Origin: Planctomycetota bacterium | GTDB lineage: Bacteria > Planctomycetota > UBA11346 | Assembly (NCBI GenBank): GCA_013816485.1 | Contig: JACDEI010000006.1 | Span: forward strand, 1,139 to 65,138 | Length of the DNA stretch: 64,000 bases | Reading direction: 5' to 3' | Part shown: one piece after another, positions 2,992 through 11,381 of the stretch | Position numbering within the stretch: position 1 is the first letter of the stretch | Layout of the letters: every line of letters begins with the position of its first letter | The notes under the pieces: model-generated | Database searches by the model: none | What the model saw: only the letters and a program-made list of their open reading frames with translations | Told to the model about the DNA's origin: nothing | Translations under genes and position numbers: made by a program

Positions 2992-3336
2992 TTGACATGA
3001 AAACATTGTGGCTACATATATCCGCATCGCCGCACACAGCGGTTCACTCCCGCAGCCCCCTCCACCACCCTCACGAGCCATGTCACCCTCCTCCCTCCAT
3101 CACACCAGAACGATGCCCACACGCTCGCTAACGAACGTGGCCGGATCGTGGTGTGTCGGTTGCGAATTGCGTCCGTCGCTGATGGCGATGAGCGCGACGA
3201 ACAGCGCGAAACGAACCGATCAGGGTGATTGCACCAACTTTACTTCCAATCTGCCGGGACCACCTGGATGATCTGACGCTCACGCGTTCGACCTTCCTGA
3301 AGACCCCGGCGGATACCCGCCGGGGTCTTCGCGTTT
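2992..3336 (+). ncRNA. Candidate small-RNA cassette: promoter motif to terminator
   Basis: Begins with TTGACA at 2992-2997 (possible -10 CATATA at 3015, 17-bp spacer) in the motif shared with 1030. It ends with an intrinsic terminator at 3299-3336. Between them is about 280 nt with no convincing protein gene, no RNase P or tmRNA signature, and no tRNA. A transcribed noncoding RNA is inferred from the promoter-terminator pairing only. Confidence 0.35.
3299..3336 (+). terminator. Intrinsic terminator
   Basis: Perfect hairpin with 14-bp arms (GAAGACCCCGGCGG and complement) around ATAC, followed by GCGTTT. Closes the cassette that starts at 2992. Confidence 0.75.
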
Positions 3337-3522
3337 CCGGTGTGGTTTTGAAAACTCTAGAACGTCGTGCTTTCATGTGGGGGTTCTGCATCAGGCCGAA
3401 CCCCCACAAAACGCGCCTCCGGCGCTGCCCCCTCTCACAGAGAGGAGAAGGTTCTGGAGGCGTTTCTTTTTCTTCCGGCTGCTGCATCGCAGCAGAGCGC
3501 TTGCGCTCAATGGCCGGAACAT
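3337..3522. repeat. Palindromic spacer before tRNA-Ala
   Basis: Contains GTGGGGGTTC...GAACCCCCAC (3378-3409), then a copy of the CGCGCCTCCGGCGCTGCCCCC repeat tail shared with other inter-tRNA spacers, and a GCTGCTGCATCGCAGCAG hairpin. No gene seen. Confidence 0.6.
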
Positions 3523-3609: not shown

Positions 3610-3747
3610 GACTGCTGCAGGAGCGTTCGCGCTCTGACCAGTGATCCGCCTTAAACCCGGTAGTTTCCCAATCTGAGCGCACCCAGGTAATGGACTGGTG
3701 CGTAACTGGCTTGAATCCGGGGCGTCGGTTAAATCCGACCAGCAGTC
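3610..3747 (+). ncRNA. tRNA-like or other structured RNA, unassigned
   Basis: Closed by an 8-bp acceptor-like stem GACTGCTG/CAGCAGTC. Inside are a UUCG-capped hairpin GAGCG-TTCG-CGCTC, a 7-bp stem GCGCACC/GGTGCGT, and a 3' arm GTCGG-TTAAAT-CCGAC placed like a T-arm but with a 6-nt loop lacking the C. No reliable anticodon can be assigned; ACTGG-CTTGAAT-CCGGG could be read as Ser(TGA). It may be a tRNA with inserts, a decayed tRNA, or an unrelated RNA. Confidence 0.4.
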
Positions 3748-4337: not shown

Positions 4338-4409
4338 GGGATGCAAGCATACGCGGCGATGCAGCCGGCTCTTAACCGGCAGAACCAGGTTCGAGTCCTG
4401 GGCGTCCCA
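4338..4409 (+). tRNA. tRNA-Lys(CTT)
   Basis: Acceptor GGGATGC/GCGTCCC, D-stem GCAT/ATGC, anticodon stem GCCGG/CCGGC with loop CTCTTAA (CTT), T-arm CCAGG/CCTGG with TTCGAGT. CCA not encoded. Confidence 0.93.
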
Positions 4410-4446
4410 CTTTTCAGAATTTACCAACCACCACGAGCAACACGGT

Positions 4447-4531
4447 GCGCCTCCTGGGAGAGGCGAGCCCCAGCTCGCCTTGCCTTTGTCGCTAGGCGAG
4501 CTGGGGCTCGCCCCTCCCAGGGGGCACGCTG
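4447..4531. repeat. Large extragenic palindrome
   Basis: Arms carrying CTGGGAG and AGGCGAGC/GCTCGCCT (one arm 4455-4486, the other 4493-4524) form a long inverted repeat around TTTGTCG. The outer CCTGGGAG/CTCCCAGG ends match the palindrome family at 1461, while the core sequence is different. Confidence 0.75.
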
Positions 4532-4549
4532 TGGCGATCAGGTTTAGTG

Positions 4550-4963
4550 TGTTGCAGCCAGGCTACCGCTGAACTTCGGCAGCCATCATCCCACGATCGC
4601 TTTCCGCTCACATGATTTCCCAGCGCGTTGCCCGCTGGTTCACCACCGTTGCGCGTATCCACGGTGGCGTCGTAAGACGATAGGCAGAAGCCTGAGGTCA
4701 GGGTGCCAGGGTCGACCGGTGCCTCCATCCTCGACAGGCGAGCGATCCAGACCGTTTGGCAGCGGTCGTGATCGCGATCAGTTCCCGGCCGTGAGCCGCT
4801 GTGCCAACAGCGGAGTGCTGGCCGGGGATTCAGCAGGTCCATCAGGACCATTGCTGACGATACGAAGCCAGTGAACGGGAGTAACGTCCCGGTGTGCTGA
4901 CCTCGGATAACACCGAGGAATCACTGGCATGGGCTCAGCAGTGCTGAAGAGCCCTTTCTTTTT
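4550..4963 (+). ncRNA. Candidate structured noncoding RNA with intrinsic terminator
   Basis: About 400 nt without a protein gene but dense in perfect helices on one strand: CCAGCG/CGCTGG, CCACCGT/ACGGTGG, a nested pair CCCGGCC/GGCCGGG enclosing CCGCTGT/ACAGCGG, GGTCC/GGACC, and CCAGTGA/TCACTGG enclosing hairpins CGGGAGTAACGTCCCG and CCTCGG/CCGAGG. It ends in hairpin GGGCTC/GAGCCC plus TTTCTTTTT (4931-4963). It lacks the conserved RNase P, tmRNA and SRP RNA motifs. Function unknown; it may be cotranscribed with tRNA-Lys(CTT). Confidence 0.55.
4931..4963 (+). terminator. Intrinsic terminator
   Basis: GGGCTC/GAGCCC stem with an internal CAGCAGTGCTG hairpin, directly followed by TTTCTTTTT. The U-tract fixes the + strand for the structured RNA upstream. 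Confidence 0.85.
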
Positions 4964-5090
4964 CCGATGGTCGCCATGCGACCGTCACCATTCTCGCCGT
5001 TGCCTCGACGGCCTTCTCAGAGCAGGGGATCCACGCGACCGGCAGACCGGCGCGGCGCAATGTGAGCGCAGATCTCCCAGAGGCATTTCT

Positions 5091-5164
5091 ACAGCGATGG
5101 TCCAGTGGCCGGGCCCCGGTTTCCAAAACCGGTGAGTGGGGTTCGATTCCTCATCGCTGTGCCA
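5091..5164 (+). tRNA. tRNA-Trp(CCA)
   Basis: Perfect acceptor ACAGCGA/TCGCTGT, anticodon stem CCGGT/ACCGG with loop TTCCAAA (CCA), T-arm TGGGG/CCTCA with TTCGATT, discriminator G and CCA encoded. Confidence 0.93.
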
Positions 5165-5165
5165 T

Positions 5166-5324
5166 CCCTGTGTCGTTCAGCGGCAGGACTGCACGCTGCC
5201 AGCGTGCGGACCCCCGGCTCGGCGGAGCTCGCCGCACTGCGCGCGGCACGGACAGCGCGCAGGCGCTGTCCTATCGGCCTGTGGCCGATGCCGTGCTCGG
5301 GTTCGAATCCGGGCACAGGGTCCA
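5166..5324 (+). tRNA. tRNA-Gly(GCC) with an 84-nt structured insert in the T-arm
   Basis: Perfect acceptor CCCTGTG/CACAGGG, D-stem GTTC/GGAC, anticodon stem GCACG/CGTGC with loop CTGCCAG (GCC), discriminator T and CCA. The T-stem CCCGG (5213-5217) and CCGGG (5309-5313) with loop TTCGAAT is interrupted by 5218-5301. The insert folds as a junction: GCAC/GTGC closing GGACAGCGC/GCGCTGTCC and ATCGGCC/GGCCGAT. A copy of about 90% identity sits in tRNA-Thr(GGT) at 6919-7078. The exact insertion boundary is ambiguous by a few bases. Confidence 0.83.
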
Positions 5325-5347: not shown

Positions 5348-5443
5348 CCGTGCTTGGCCGATCGGTCGAGGCACCGGTTTTCCAAACCGGGTAAGTGGGT
5401 AAGTGGCCTGTCGTCAGGCCATCGATTCCCGCAGCACGGTCCA
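5348..5443 (+). tRNA. tRNA-Gly(TCC) with a 21-nt T-loop insert
   Basis: Perfect acceptor CCGTGCT/AGCACGG, anticodon stem CCGGT/ACCGG with loop TTTCCAA (TCC), T-stem GTGGG/CCCGC, CCA encoded. The insert at 5401-5421 is identical to the one in tRNA-Pro(CGG) and again lies after the first T of the T-loop (T, insert, TCGATT). GTAAGTGGG just before it duplicates the start of the insert. No other Gly(TCC) gene is in the window. Confidence 0.87.
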
Positions 5444-5976: not shown

Positions 5977-6192
5977 GTGTTCATTCCCATCCCCCTCCCA
6001 CGCGGCGTGTCGCTACGCGACGCCAAGCGCCTGCGGTCACACGCAGACTGGTATCTGCGCGAAGCCGCGCGCCATGGCCCCGGTTATGGTTCCAAGCGCT
6101 TCGAACGGCAGCGCCAGCGCCGTCTACGCTACATACACACGGTCGCATCCGCGACCGCGCGTATCGGCTCGGCCTTACGAAGTCACCTTTAG
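5977..6192 (+). CDS. Possible 71-aa basic protein
   Basis: Start GTG at 5977 with AGGAGA seven bases upstream. The product is rich in Arg (VSLRDAKRLRSHADWYLRE, then KRFERQRQRRLRYIHT) and looks helical, as a small RNA-binding protein might; no family recognised. Its last 13 codons overlap the 5' strand of the tRNA-Leu(TAG) candidate at 6155, which argues against one or the other being intact. Real but unusual, or spurious; coding potential is moderate only. Confidence 0.35.
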   Translation: MFIPIPLPRGVSLRDAKRLRSHADWYLREAARHGPGYGSKRFERQRQRRLRYIHTVASATARIGSALRSHL

Positions 6193-6252: not shown

Positions 6253-6369
6253 GCTGTCGTCCCCTTCGGGGAGGCTTCGCACTAGCTCAATCGGCAGAGC
6301 GCCGCTTTCGTAAAGCGGAGGTCGCAGGTAAGTGGCCTGTCGTCAGGCCATCAACTCCTGCCGACAGCA
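6253..6369 (+). tRNA. tRNA-Thr(CGT) with two inserts
   Basis: Perfect acceptor GCTGTCG/CGACAGC, anticodon stem CCGCT/AGCGG with loop TTCGTAA (CGT), T-stem GCAGG/CCTGC. The first insert of about 23 nt (6260-6282), containing CCC-TTCG-GGG, separates the acceptor strand from TA-GCTC of the D arm. The second is the 21-nt T-loop insert (6330-6350), identical to those in Pro(CGG) and Gly(TCC); without it the loop is TTCAACT. CCA is not encoded. All stems remain perfect, which argues against simple decay. Confidence 0.83.
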
Positions 6370-6399: not shown

Positions 6400-6724
6400 T
6401 GGCACGCCACGATCACGACGAACCCTGCTTTCGAAACCACCAGCAAACGCCGTAAGGGCTTCCCATCCGAGACCCATGTGAAGCGCGGCCTGCGCATCGT
6501 CCGGGGGTGCAAAAGACCTGCTGGAGAAACTCGGCCGGAATGATCCATGCCCCTGTGGATCGTGGCGCCGCTTCAAGGACTGCTGCCTGCACAGCGGCCG
6601 TTTCGACGGTGCGAACCGTCAGCACTTTTTTCAGAGACTAGACGTCCGCCTCAGGGAAATCCTGAGGAACTCTGAAACCCGGAGGCGATCGCCAACCGAT
6701 CGCCTCCGGGTGGATGCGATTTGA
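6400..6724 (+). pseudogene. Frameshifted SEC-C motif protein
   Basis: ATG 6400 follows AGGAGG and opens [11 protein letters not shown], but this frame stops after 18 codons. A second frame continues with [19 protein letters not shown] and LRIVRG, and a third with [18 protein letters not shown] then [15 protein letters not shown], which is a clear SEC-C zinc motif (CPCGS..RFKDCC). Two shifts are needed to join them, so this looks like a broken small SEC-C protein. An intact SEC-C gene is at 14307. Sequencing error or programmed frameshifting would be alternatives. Confidence 0.6.
6678..6710 (+). terminator. Strong hairpin, terminator-like
   Basis: Arms CCCGGAGGCGATCG and complement (14 bp, perfect) around CCAAC, without a U-tract. 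A smaller hairpin CCTCAGG/CCTGAGG lies at 6651-6667. May end the SEC-C transcript or be a processing structure. Confidence 0.45.
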
Positions 6725-6918: not shown

Positions 6919-7078
6919 GTCCGTGTGGCTCAATGGCAGAGCGCTTCGTTGGTAACGAAGCGGCTGCCCCGGCTCGCTGAGCTCGCCGGACTGCGCTCGG
7001 CACGGACAGCACGCAGGTGCTGTCCTATCGGCCTTCGGCCGATGCCGTGCTCGGGTTCGATTCCACCCATGGGCACCA
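6919..7078 (+). tRNA. tRNA-Thr(GGT) with structured insert, T-stem broken
   Basis: Acceptor GTCCGTG/CATGGGC (two wobbles), D-stem GCTC/GAGC, anticodon stem CTTCG/CGAAG with loop TTGGTAA (GGT), CCA encoded. From about 6967 to 7055 it carries the same type of insert as tRNA-Gly(GCC): GGACAGCAC/GTGCTGTCC and ATCGGCC/GGCCGAT under GCAC/GTGC. The 3' T-stem strand CCACC has no complementary 5' strand beside the insert, so unlike the Gly gene the T-stem cannot form as written. Possibly non-functional. Confidence 0.7.
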
Positions 7079-7133: not shown

Positions 7134-7676
7134 ATGTCACGCTGCCTGGTGCTCAACGCCAGCTATGAATACCTGTCGATCGCCGATCGTTGGATCGACG
7201 CACTTACCCTGGTGCTGAGTAAGAAGGCCACGCCGATCGAGGAGTATCCCGAGGTCGTACGCAGCCAGCGCGAGGATTTTCGTCTGCCGGCCGTGGTGGT
7301 GATGAACCGCTACGTGAAGACCCGGCGCAAAGTCCGCCTGTGGATCGTGCCGACGCGCAAACTGGTATTCAGCCGTGACGGATTTCGCTGCCAGTACTGC
7401 GGCACCGGCGTCAATATGAAGACCGGCACGCGTGACCACGTGCAACCGTTGTCGCGTGGTGGTCCAGACGTGCTGGCCAACGTCGTGACCGCGTGCCGTG
7501 ACTGCAACGGCCGCAAGGACGACCGCACGCCGGATGAGGCCGGCATGAAACTGCTCAGCCAGCCGCGTTCGCTGACTGAGTCGGAGAAGATCCAGTGTCT
7601 GCTGAAAACCTGCCGGACCAAGGAACGAGACACGTGGCTGGAATGTCTGACGCGCATCGGCGTACGACTTGGATGA
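7134..7676 (+). CDS. HNH endonuclease family protein
   Basis: 180 aa. The start is fixed by AAGGAGG seven bases before ATG 7134; an upstream in-frame extension runs through tRNA-Thr and is spurious. The C-terminal half has the HNH fold signature: FSRDGFRCQYCG (first CxxC), RDHVQPLSRGG (catalytic DH) and ACRDCNGRKDDRTP (second CxxC plus N). This family of short HNH proteins is common in bacteria and its cellular role is usually unknown. Its place inside a tRNA array whose members carry inserts at one site suggests it could cut tRNA-gene DNA as a homing-type nuclease, but that is inference; it could equally be an unrelated resident gene. Confidence 0.9.
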   Translation: MSRCLVLNASYEYLSIADRWIDALTLVLSKKATPIEEYPEVVRSQREDFRLPAVVVMNRYVKTRRKVRLWIVPTRKLVFSRDGFRCQYCGTGVNMKTGTRDHVQPLSRGGPDVLANVVTACRDCNGRKDDRTPDEAGMKLLSQPRSLTESEKIQCLLKTCRTKERDTWLECLTRIGVRLG

Positions 7677-7683
7677 TTGGACC

Positions 7684-7718
7684 TGCCTCCGGATCACTCC
7701 GGTGGCGGGGGCTTTTCT
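7684..7718 (+). terminator. Terminator-like hairpin after the HNH gene
   Basis: CCTCCGG/CCGGTGG hairpin followed by CGGGGGCTTTTCT, eight bases past the HNH stop. Moderate strength. Confidence 0.5.
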
Positions 7719-7741
7719 GCTACGTGAACATGACAACTGGA

Positions 7742-7852
7742 ATCGAACAGGAGGCGCGGAGACGCGGAGCTCAGATGAGGTTCGACCTCTCACTGAAACG
7801 CCACACGGCCTCGCCTCTTCCGAACTCCGCGTCTCCGCGCCTCCTGTTCGAT
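7742..7852. repeat. Long inverted repeat with 28-bp perfect arms
   Basis: Arms at 7742-7769 and 7825-7852 are perfect complements; the left arm contains GGAGGCGCGGAGACGCGGAG. The 55-bp centre has no gene. It could form a large cruciform or a transcript hairpin. Confidence 0.85.
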
Positions 7853-7910
7853 CGGATTTACTGGATGGGATTTTCCGCTTCCGATGGCGAGAACGTATTT
7901 TTCATCACGT

Positions 7911-7996
7911 GCGCTGGTGGTGGAACTGGCAGACATGGCGGGCTCAAACCCCGTCGACCGTCAAGGTCATTGCGGGTCTGAATCCCGCCCGGCGCA
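7911..7996 (+). tRNA. tRNA-Leu(CAA)
   Basis: Acceptor GCGCTGG/CCGGCGC, anticodon stem GCGGG/CCCGT with loop CTCAAAC (CAA), long variable arm GACC-GTCAA-GGTC, T-arm GCGGG/CCCGC with loop TCTGAAT (not TTCGAAT). Discriminator A, no CCA. Confidence 0.88.
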
Positions 7997-8142
7997 GCAG
8001 GTGTGGGTAGAGGAACTGGCAGACTCGTCTAGCTCAGTACCAGGAGTGGCGAAAGCTTGATGTGGGTAAGTGGGCAAGTGGGCAAGTGGGCAAGTGGGCA
8101 AGTGGCCTGTCCTCAGGCCAGCGACTCCATCTGCTTCGACCA
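7997..8142 (+). tRNA. tRNA-Leu(CAG) with expanded T-loop insert
   Basis: Starts on the base after tRNA-Leu(CAA). Acceptor GCAGGTG pairs with CATCTGC (8128-8134); alternatively the end is TGCTTCG-A-CCA (8132-8142). Anticodon loop CTCAGTA (CAG), stem with one A.C mismatch. After GTGGG-T (8062-8067) come four tandem AAGTGGGC units (8068-8099), then the 21-nt insert (8100-8120, loop TCCT instead of TCGT), then GCGACT. The T-stem 3' strand fits poorly in either reading, so the gene may be damaged. Confidence 0.6.
8068..8099 (+). repeat. Tandem repeat AAGTGGGC x4
   Basis: Four perfect 8-bp units directly before the 21-nt T-loop insert of tRNA-Leu(CAG), whose own first bases AAGTGG match the unit. 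Suggests slippage or template switching at the insert edge. Confidence 0.95.
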
Positions 8143-8187
8143 GACTCTATCCGACTACATGAACGACCATCGGTTGACGCATGACGC

Positions 8188-8844
8188 ATGATGCCCGAAC
8201 TGCTCCCTGCGAATCGGGCTTGCCGGATCCGCGGCCTATCCATCGTTACTGACATGGGTCTGCTGTGGTGGCGTCAGAAAAAACCGGCCGAGAAGGCGAA
8301 ACTCCCCGGGCCGCGGATCGATCGGGATGCCGTGGTGGGCGCTCTCCGCGCGAACGATTTCATTTTTCATGCCGGTACACCGCGATGCCATGATTCCGGC
8401 TGGCATGGCATCCTGCTCAATGCACCTCGACGCATTATTGTCCGACCACAGCCCAGAGATCCCATGTTTGGTGATGACGCTCCTCGTGCGCTGATCTGGG
8501 GCCATTGCCTGTTCCCCGATCGCCCGGGAGAAGGACACAGCGATTACCGCACGGACATCACCTTGGTCGCGGTGGAGATCACCAAGGGCCAGGTCTACCG
8601 TGGCCGCGTCACCGAACGCCCAACGTTCGGCTCAGTCCACTGTTTCATTAATCCCCAACGACCAGCGCTTCCGGCAGATTCAGCCACGGGTCGCCTCACC
8701 TCCTCGGGAGGACCTTTCAACCCCAACCTCCTGGCCATCTGTGGCCTCCCATGCACCGATGCAGACTATGAGATCTTCGCCTTGTTGGGCACGTGGCGGT
8801 CGAATGTGATCGACGTGTCATTGCGGTTCGAACTCGGCAACTGA
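8188..8844 (+). CDS. Hypothetical protein
   Basis: Up to 218 aa; the start is uncertain. ATG 8188 gives an N-terminus of poor quality, while ATG 8254 (MGLLWWRQKKPAEKA) gives a better one of 196 aa; neither has a clear Shine-Dalgarno site. No signal peptide, membrane segment or known motif seen. The middle contains WGHCLFPDRPGEGHSDYRTD and VAVEITKGQVYRGRV, giving a mixed alpha/beta look. First protein gene downstream of the tRNA array and on its strand. I do not recognise the family. Confidence 0.6.
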   Translation: MMPELLPANRACRIRGLSIVTDMGLLWWRQKKPAEKAKLPGPRIDRDAVVGALRANDFIFHAGTPRCHDSGWHGILLNAPRRIIVRPQPRDPMFGDDAPRALIWGHCLFPDRPGEGHSDYRTDITLVAVEITKGQVYRGRVTERPTFGSVHCFINPQRPALPADSATGRLTSSGGPFNPNLLAICGLPCTDADYEIFALLGTWRSNVIDVSLRFELGN

Positions 8845-8908: not shown

Positions 8909-10441
8909 ATGACCCGTCGCCTGTTTGTCATTGCCCTCATTTTTCTGACCAGTGGCTACTCGATCGCCAGCGATGCTCCTGCGCTCCTGCGTAGCACCCC
9001 GGAAAAACAGGGCATCGCCTCATCCGCGATCCTCTCCTTCGTCCAGACGGTGGATCAGGACATCGACGGCATGCACAGCTTCATGCTGCTGCGCCATGGC
9101 CACGTGGTCGCAGAGTGTTGGTGGAAACCGTACGACAGCGAGACGCCGCATATTTTCTTTTCGCTGAGCAAGAGTTTCACCTCCACGGCGGTCGGTATCG
9201 CCATCGCCGAGGGCAAGCTCAGCCTGGACGACGAAGTGCTCAAGGCGTTCCCTGGTGAAGCACCGGCAGAGCCGTCGGCGAATCTGAAAGCGATGCGTCT
9301 GCGCGATCTGCTGCGCATGCAGGCGGGACATGAAAAAGAGCTTTCGTTCTGGAAGGAAGTCGGCGGCGAGAATGGCGACTCCTGGACCAAGCGCTTCCTG
9401 GCGCATCCGGTGACCTTCAAGCCGGGCACGCGATTTCTCTACAACACGCCGGCGACCTTCATGGCCGGCGCGATGGTGAAGCAGGCGACCGGCGAGGACA
9501 TCCTCGACTACCTCACGCCGCGCCTGTTCGCCCCCATCGGCTTCAAGAGCCCGACGTGGGTGAAGAATCCCCAGGGTCTGTCGGTCGGCGGTTATGGCTT
9601 GATGGGCCGCACCGAGGACATCGCGCGCTTCGGGCAACTGTTGTTGCAGCGGGGCATGTGGAACGGCAAACAGCTCGTGCCGGCGGCGTGGGTCGATGAG
9701 GCGACCGCGCTGCAGACCAGCAACGGCAGCAATCCGGCGAGCGATTGGGACCAAGGCTACGGTTACCAATTCTGGCGTTGCCAGCACGGTGCCTACCGCG
9801 GCGACGGCGCCTTCGGCCAGTACTGCATCGTCATGCCCAAGCAGGACGTGGTGATCGCCATCACCGGCGGCCTGTCGAACATGCAGGCGGTGCTGAATCA
9901 GGTGTGGGACAAGCTGCTGCCGGCGATGCAGCAGGACGCGTTGGCAGAGGACGCCGCCGGTGCCAAGGCGCTGACAACCAAGCTCGCCGCGCTCACCATG
10001 CGTATGCCGATGGGCCAGGCGACTTCGCCCATCGCCGCGAGCATCTCCGGCATGCGTTTCCCGTTCACTGAGAACGAACGCGGCATCACCGCCCTCGGCC
10101 TCGATACGTCGACCCAGCCACCGGCTCTGCTGGTGCGTACCGCCGCGGGCGAGACGCGCATGCCAGTGCCCTTCGGTTCATGGAGCGCTCCTGCGCCCGG
10201 CTTCACCAACCACCTCGAACGCTCGCTGAGCGTGCCAGCGAATCCGACGGTGTCGGCCAGCGGCGCGTGGACCGCGGACGACACCTTCACCATCAAGCTG
10301 GTGCTGAACCAGACGACCTTCTCTTCGACGCTGAATCTGAAGTTCGCTGCTCAGAAGCTGACGTTCAGTTCGAAGCACAACGTCAACTTCGGACCGACGG
10401 CGATGCCGGAGTTGGTCGGGCAGATTCCGCCGACGCGGTGA
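8909..10441 (+). CDS. Serine hydrolase, beta-lactamase/class C penicillin-binding fold
   Basis: 510 aa with a signal peptide (residues 1-20, MTRRLFVIALIFLTSGYSIA), so probably exported. The N-terminal 340 residues match the beta-lactamase-like serine hydrolase family: SLSK at 85-88 gives the SxxK nucleophile and general base, and FLYNT at 176-180 sits where the YxN motif is expected. The remaining 170 residues form a separate beta-rich tail typical of secreted esterase or peptidase members. Substrate unknown. Convergent with the isomerase gene, 13 bp from its stop. Confidence 0.85.
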   Translation: MTRRLFVIALIFLTSGYSIASDAPALLRSTPEKQGIASSAILSFVQTVDQDIDGMHSFMLLRHGHVVAECWWKPYDSETPHIFFSLSKSFTSTAVGIAIAEGKLSLDDEVLKAFPGEAPAEPSANLKAMRLRDLLRMQAGHEKELSFWKEVGGENGDSWTKRFLAHPVTFKPGTRFLYNTPATFMAGAMVKQATGEDILDYLTPRLFAPIGFKSPTWVKNPQGLSVGGYGLMGRTEDIARFGQLLLQRGMWNGKQLVPAAWVDEATALQTSNGSNPASDWDQGYGYQFWRCQHGAYRGDGAFGQYCIVMPKQDVVIAITGGLSNMQAVLNQVWDKLLPAMQQDALAEDAAGAKALTTKLAALTMRMPMGQATSPIAASISGMRFPFTENERGITALGLDTSTQPPALLVRTAAGETRMPVPFGSWSAPAPGFTNHLERSLSVPANPTVSASGAWTADDTFTIKLVLNQTTFSSTLNLKFAAQKLTFSSKHNVNFGPTAMPELVGQIPPTR

Positions 10442-10454
10442 AAGCGCGCCGGCA

Positions 10455-11381
10455 TTATCCGGCGATCGCCGTCTTCAGCTTCGCCAGTTCACGCGGGATC
10501 GCCGTCCATGGATCCTCGTCCTCCTCGTATTCAAGGGTGACGAAGCCCTGGTAGTTGGCCTGTCGCAGGATCGCAGTCAACCGCGCGTAATCCGCGGGTT
10601 CGCTGGCGGCTGCACCGGCACGTTTGATCGTCGCCTTCACTTGGACATTTACCGCGTACGGCGCACAGCGCGCGAAGTCGGCGTAGGGATCAGCGGTGTG
10701 GAAGTTACCGCCGTCGAGGTTGATGCCGAGCCACGGGCTGTCGACCGCGTGCACGATGGCGAGCAGGCCATCGGCGTCGGCGGTCGGGCCACCGTGATTC
10801 TCCAGGCCGAGCATGATGCCGTTCAGGCCCGCGTAGCCGGCGCACTCGACCAAGCCCTCGACCGCCAACGAACGGGCGGTGGCGGCGTCCATGTCCTTGG
10901 GTGGTTTGCCGGCGAAGACACGGATGTGCGGCGCGCCCAGACGCACCGCGTGATCGATCCACTGCTTGGTTGTGCTGATTTCAGCGGCACGGTCCTCCTT
11001 GGTGCCGCTGATGAAGTCGTTGCCGATGGCGGTGCCGCAGATGGCAACACCACGCAGGAAGGCATGCCGGCGCAGGCGCGGCAGCACATCACCAGTCAGG
11101 TCCTTGGGCAGGAAGTAGCTGGTCAGTTCCGCACCAGCGACACCGATCTCCGCACACCAATCGATGAAACCGGCGAGGTCGATGCCTTTTTCGGCCGGCA
11201 CCGGCGCGCTGCGCTTCTGGATGTCGCCGAGGAAGAATTTGCGCAGCGAGTACGCGGCCAGACCGAGCTGAAACCGTGGTGGTCCGGTGCGCGTGAACGG
11301 TTCGATCGCACCAGCGATGCCGGACAATAGGAGCGGCGACAGCGCAGCAGTGGCGAGTAGACGACGGCGAGACCAGGACAT
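10455..11381 (-). CDS. Secreted sugar phosphate isomerase/epimerase (xylose isomerase-like TIM barrel)
   Basis: 308 aa from ATG 11381, chosen because GGAGGA precedes it at the right spacing and because the protein then opens with a twin-arginine signal (MSWSRRRLLATAALSPLLL). The mature part follows the AP endonuclease family 2/xylose isomerase-like barrel: FIDWCAEIGVAGAEL, GLENHGG (metal-ligand Glu-Asn-His), LGINLDGGNFH, VQVKA and VTLEYEEDEDP. Such exported isomerases are common in Planctomycetota sugar catabolism. Exact substrate cannot be stated. Confidence 0.87.
   Translation of the reverse strand: MSWSRRRLLATAALSPLLLSGIAGAIEPFTRTGPPRFQLGLAAYSLRKFFLGDIQKRSAPVPAEKGIDLAGFIDWCAEIGVAGAELTSYFLPKDLTGDVLPRLRRHAFLRGVAICGTAIGNDFISGTKEDRAAEISTTKQWIDHAVRLGAPHIRVFAGKPPKDMDAATARSLAVEGLVECAGYAGLNGIMLGLENHGGPTADADGLLAIVHAVDSPWLGINLDGGNFHTADPYADFARCAPYAVNVQVKATIKRAGAAASEPADYARLTAILRQANYQGFVTLEYEEDEDPWTAIPRELAKLKTAIAG

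Follow-up and report, generated by a model that had tools for sequence, protein, structure and literature searches.

In Mycobacterium, genes for an XRE regulator and HNH genes occur in about 87% of the arrays of one tRNA array group, and a structured RNA of ∼430 nt occurs in about 81% of the arrays (PMC5966550). Large tRNA clusters of this genus are accompanied by GOLLD RNA and HNH genes (PMC9569102). GOLLD forms RNA nanocages, and the structure of ROOL is highly complex, with multiple pseudoknots (PMC12286853). A further structured RNA that may be found in tRNA arrays is tmRNA (PMC5966550).

The DNA analysed here, a stretch of 64 000 nt referred to as the window, is part of contig C30 in the 5.2 Mb genome of an uncultured bacterium and carries a candidate structured RNA (4550–4963) inside a long tRNA gene cluster. 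The setting of GOLLD and of the ∼430-nt mycobacterial RNA, namely a tRNA array with an HNH gene and an XRE/HTH regulator, was found in the window. The candidate differs from GOLLD in its core of ∼180 nt, its bacterial group and its layout; with ROOL it shares a position near tRNA islands and the lack of a protein gene, whereas the complexity of multiple pseudoknots belongs to ROOL. An earlier sequence-only reading of this DNA had pointed to both RNAs; the likeness held for the setting, but neither the GOLLD nor the ROOL covariance model from Rfam matched the candidate even at E ≤ 10. Unlike a tmRNA, the candidate site was matched neither by ARAGORN nor by RF00023, and the tmRNA of this genome is located elsewhere, on contig C72. 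Like the HNH-bearing arrays of mycobacteria and of Synechococcus phage S-CBWM1, the array in the window combines numerous tRNAs with interspersed HNH genes; it differs from these in being found on contigs of an uncultured bacterial family, in its conserved tRNA order and in its other embedded RNAs. Our verdict is that the candidate is a real structured element, probably a noncoding RNA, that is smaller than claimed, new as a family and placed in a setting known in kind.

Nineteen + strand tRNAs were detected between 1317 and 7998 using ARAGORN, and a few interrupted ones were added by Rfam; the number and density of tRNA genes are as high as in a tRNA array unit. All of the array tRNAs share the + strand. 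The array was taken to be an additional tRNA set because ∼40 further tRNA matches were found elsewhere in the same genome. Its order is near-identical in relatives (Ile, Val, Pro, His, Gln, Phe, Asn, Glu, Ala, Asp, Lys, in some cases Ser, Trp, Gly, Arg, Thr, Val, the HNH gene and Leu). The candidate does lie within this array, as had been stated, and is flanked by tRNA-Lys(ctt) (4338–4410) and tRNA-Trp (5091–5164). A 43-bp inverted repeat just upstream of it (4441–4533) is a dispersed genomic repeat of REP/MITE-like type, with 64 matching stretches genome-wide, and lies outside the RNA; the microRNA matches returned by the Rfam search corresponded to this palindrome, scored below their gathering scores and were rejected.

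The HNH endonuclease gene of the array (7134–7676, + strand; Pfam HNH_5, E = 1.6e-13) is also array-linked in genomes G001, G020 and G022. When it was used as an array marker in a phylum-wide search, high-identity matches were restricted to the family of the candidate's host. Many mycobacteriophages are among its phage relatives, and the HNH match of Synechococcus phage S-CBWM1 stands amid tRNA genes; according to their annotation, the relatives from a Gordonia phage and from a Rhodococcus plasmid do not. A divergently transcribed helix-turn-helix protein is encoded at the array's 5′ end (22–975, − strand; Pfam HTH_28 and HTH_3 above cut-off). It flanks the first promoter of the array, seemingly also in G001 and G007 (L102 about 7540–8500; L204 about 10400–11000), and is possibly a dedicated array regulator.

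Several further features of the array were recorded. A putative internal promoter (TTGACA), a leader of a few hundred nucleotides and a strong terminator hairpin precede tRNA-Ala (2992–3340), and this unit is repeated in relatives [L119 about 9575–9260 (−), L129 about 12960–12690 (−)]; it looks like an attenuation device of the array. Near-identical copies of a 21-nt hairpin (AAGTGGCCTGTCGTCAGGCCA) were seen at 1696–1716, 5401–5421, 6330–6350 and 8100–8120, where they sit in the would-be T-loop of several array tRNA genes and split GT^TCGA. A structured insert of ∼87 nt, present in two copies about 91% identical to each other (5216–5303 and 6967–7053), interrupts two tRNA genes just 5′ of the T-arm GGTTCGA. 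A small conserved SEC-C-like protein [6400–6640; L119 about 7050–6770 (−); L125 about 800–1060] shows an apparent within-gene frame shift in the copies seen. A conserved small open reading frame (5977–6192, MFIPIPLPRG...), which ends near a tRNA-like gene, is common to G020, G022 and G003 and gave no match to Pfam.

The interval 4550–4963 had been described as a single structured RNA of ∼400 nt. Taken as a whole, its 414 nt fold with z = −4.7; only ten of the 152 same-size windows in the 64 kb reached z ≤ −4.2, and eight of these ten lie in the array region. The signal is unevenly distributed. Segment 4781–4928 gave z = −7.3, with none of 1000 dinucleotide shuffles as stable, and 4550–4777 gave z = −0.6, with 120-nt windows on the + strand at background level, so that the multibranch fold computed for the 5′ part is not evidence of structure. 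The folded object is therefore the 3′ ∼180 nt (4781–4964), not the full ∼400 nt; it is made up of hairpins A and B, a linker and a three-way junction, and ends in a terminator hairpin followed by a U-tract. As expected for stems so close to perfect, the reverse complement of 4781–4928 is only slightly less well folded (z = −6.0); the + strand was assigned because the neighbouring tRNAs and the terminator are on that strand.

Hairpin A (4781–4829, + strand) has stem CCCGGCC/GGCCGGG, an internal loop and stem CCGCUG/CAGCGG (z = −5.3, 0/1000 shuffles). Hairpin B (4830–4857, + strand) is formed by UCAGCA/UGCUGA and GGUCC/GGACC with a 2-nt bulge (z = −4.8). In three-way junction C (4867–4928, + strand; z = −4.6, 0/1000), helix P1 (GCCAGUGA/UCACUGGC) closes hairpins CGGGA/UCCCG and CCUCGG/CCGAGG, and the conserved sequence GUGAACGGGnGUnAnGnCCCGGUG is found at 4871–4894. 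As judged by sequence and fold, a terminator-like hairpin (4931–4964, + strand) is formed by GGGCUC/GAGCCC, followed by UUUCUUUUUC. Perfect helices, a three-way junction and a terminal intrinsic terminator, all named in the sequence-only reading, were thus recovered. Its statements that a protein gene and a known RNA motif are lacking also held: two overlapping open reading frames were examined and neither contained a Pfam domain, and the Rfam search of the candidate gave no family match.

The full interval gave nothing convincing by blastn against 59 genomes (58 besides its own) or in a search of phage and plasmid sequences, and exact-pattern scans of viral contigs with the conserved core gave no match. 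The candidate is present as a single copy in its own genome. No such segment occurs in the corresponding gap of G003, of either G007 array, of G020 or of G022; in G003, which is of the same genus, RNA 2 (described below) stands directly after Lys(ctt). Proposed occurrences in the Lys–Trp gaps of G020 and G007 were rejected, as these gaps contain RNA 2. Given its absence from the same gap in the other array copies, the candidate is a lineage-specific insert and dispensable; the insertion adjoins the palindromic repeat at 4441–4533.

One relative was found, not by blastn but by reading the arrays of related genomes. It lies in a tRNA array on contig C80 of G001, a genome of the same genus (L103 763–913), immediately 5′ of tRNA-Thr and the HNH gene. 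This stretch is colinear with window 4798–4955 with a score of 26, compared with a maximum of 21 in 500 shuffles of the candidate (0/500), and within it the 33-nt block ACGAAnnCnGUGAACGGGnGUnAnGnCCCGGUG shows 79% identity between the candidate and G001. When the helices were placed on G001 in a hand alignment of the two sequences, 42 of 44 pairs were standard, 16 of them with double changes, and two were broken; MAFFT alignments A2, A6 and A7, which put helices in the wrong place, were excluded from the covariation counts. Hairpin A retains its two-stem shape, with five double changes in the outer stem, the counterpart of hairpin B has three, and for junction C covariance-model matches in the G001 loci gave E = 0.003 to 0.006. 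G001 keeps the terminator stem and lacks the U-tract. In pairwise alifold, hardly any column shuffle reached the energy of the real alignment (z of about −2.9 to −3.7), and the layout was reproduced by six of 20 000 shuffles downstream of the core and by eight of 3000 upstream, with descriptor thresholds that had been set after seeing G001. On its own, the stretch in G001 does not clearly exceed its shuffles in stability (z = −1.3). A covariance model built from the window alone finds G001 genome-wide at E = 2.8, which is not significant; its other weak matches are without nearby tRNAs and were rejected. For the 5′ part (4550–4780, + strand), which is structured no more than expected by chance (z = −0.6), a relative was not found, and alignments never rose above shuffles. 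The covariation that had been proposed as a check was thus seen for the 3′ core against a single relative. On this comparison of two sequences the candidate and the G001 stretch are likely to be homologous, and fold and core appear to be conserved between the window and this one relative.

Two other RNAs of the array, both previously undescribed, are better conserved and better supported than the candidate; neither matched a family in Rfam. RNA 1 (3610–3747, + strand) is a four-helix cloverleaf between tRNA-Ala and tRNA-Asp, with 27 pairs, of which seven show double changes. In its five sequences [window 3610–3747; L171 126–262; L129 12356–12498 (−); L119 9014–9105 (−); L172 8671–8768] 96% of cells are paired, compared with 21–44% in slid controls, and its model matched five of 392 genomes, all of them array genomes of the candidate's family. 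RNA 2 (5001–5085, + strand) is Y-shaped, one of its arms having a bulged A, and lies just outside the interval originally described; the sequence-only reading had missed it. Its helices are formed by different letters in G003, G020, G022 and the two arrays of G007 (G007a and G007b), and it stands just 5′ of tRNA-Trp wherever that gene is kept [window 5001–5085; L171 915–999; L119 7883–7965 (−); L129 11523–11604 (−); L204 about 8410–8490 (−)]. In the window copy the second helix is the 7-pair helix of the computed fold. The second array of G007, on contig C20 (L204, 7000–10400), is decayed: many of its tRNAs are lost or ruined, and RNA 1 and RNA 2 still fold.

The fold of the candidate, its position and its absence from other arrays are shown by the sequence analysis; we infer how it might be transcribed, processed and released, which partner it might have and what biological role, if any, it might play. 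The reading that we favour, at slightly better than an even chance, is that the 3′ ∼180 nt (4781–4964) are a noncoding RNA embedded in the + strand array transcript, released by tRNA processing and acting via its fold. The transcript would probably start at an internal promoter near 2992 (TTGACA, then TACATATA). Nucleases of tRNA processing would trim tRNA-Lys upstream and tRNA-Trp downstream and so free the candidate, the 3′ end of which may be set or protected by the terminator hairpin. With tRNAs on one strand, a plausible promoter at 2992 and nuclease cuts on both sides, a small stable RNA would result from the segment. Once freed, it would act through hairpins A and B and the junction; the junction arm GUGAACGGG...CCCGGUG, which is the best conserved sequence of the candidate, is a likely binding site for a partner (a protein, the ribosome or another copy of itself).

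The same hairpins could instead serve as a transcription-control module of the array, in which a run of hairpins and an intrinsic terminator limits or ends read-through from the Lys segment and no stable RNA is made; blocks of leader and terminator elsewhere in these arrays seem to have such an effect. A terminator with a U-tract is indeed present, and the arrays of relatives repeat a TTGACA promoter, a leader and a GC-rich terminator before tRNA-Ile and tRNA-Ala; in the window the promoter is at 2992. However, a promoter-like site was not found inside or just after the candidate, so that termination here would silence the downstream Trp and Arg genes; moreover, G001 lacks the U-tract, and a terminator has no need of hairpins A and B and the junction. 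We regard this account as unlikely. We give rather little credence to a palindromic insert left behind by a mobile or REP-like element, with hairpins that count at the DNA level or not at all, in spite of the good fold on both strands, the dispersed inverted repeat directly upstream, the frequency of hairpin inserts in the array and the absence of the candidate at the same place in other arrays. Such an insert is hard to reconcile with the single copy in the genome, and G001 keeps the layout with different stems through paired changes, a pattern that drift would not produce in a dead insert.

A decayed tRNA gene is suggested by the tRNA-Ser that G020 and G022 have between Lys and Trp, and arrays of this type do decay, as seen in G007 C20. 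This origin is very improbable: a tRNA model match was not found in 4550–4963 at E ≤ 10, the fold is stronger and longer than that of a tRNA and decayed DNA is not expected to reach z = −7. Equally slight is the chance of a divergent member of GOLLD or ROOL. The published mycobacterial setting of tRNA array, HNH gene, XRE/HTH regulator and structured RNA (PMC5966550, PMC9569102) is the same, but the candidate is far shorter, and the covariance searches, which gave no match at E ≤ 10 with 901 or 261 bases, largely refute this assignment.

Tentatively, and with the odds against it, the arrays may be viewed as carrying a kit in which an HTH regulator and an HNH gene accompany no fewer than three RNA families, unrelated to each other and undescribed (the candidate core, RNA 1 and RNA 2), and in which selection keeps the RNAs and not only spare tRNAs; this view draws on the decayed G007 array, where RNA 1 and RNA 2 fold and many tRNAs are ruined. 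That tRNA arrays can combine HNH genes with an HTH regulator and a large structured RNA was already known from mycobacteria and phages. The recurrence of this layout in a different bacterial group, where the RNAs match neither GOLLD nor ROOL, points to an embedded structured RNA as a functional part that recurs in such arrays, not as a peculiarity of GOLLD. The RNAs of these arrays are small and well bounded (about 85 to 180 nt), which makes them easier to test than GOLLD.
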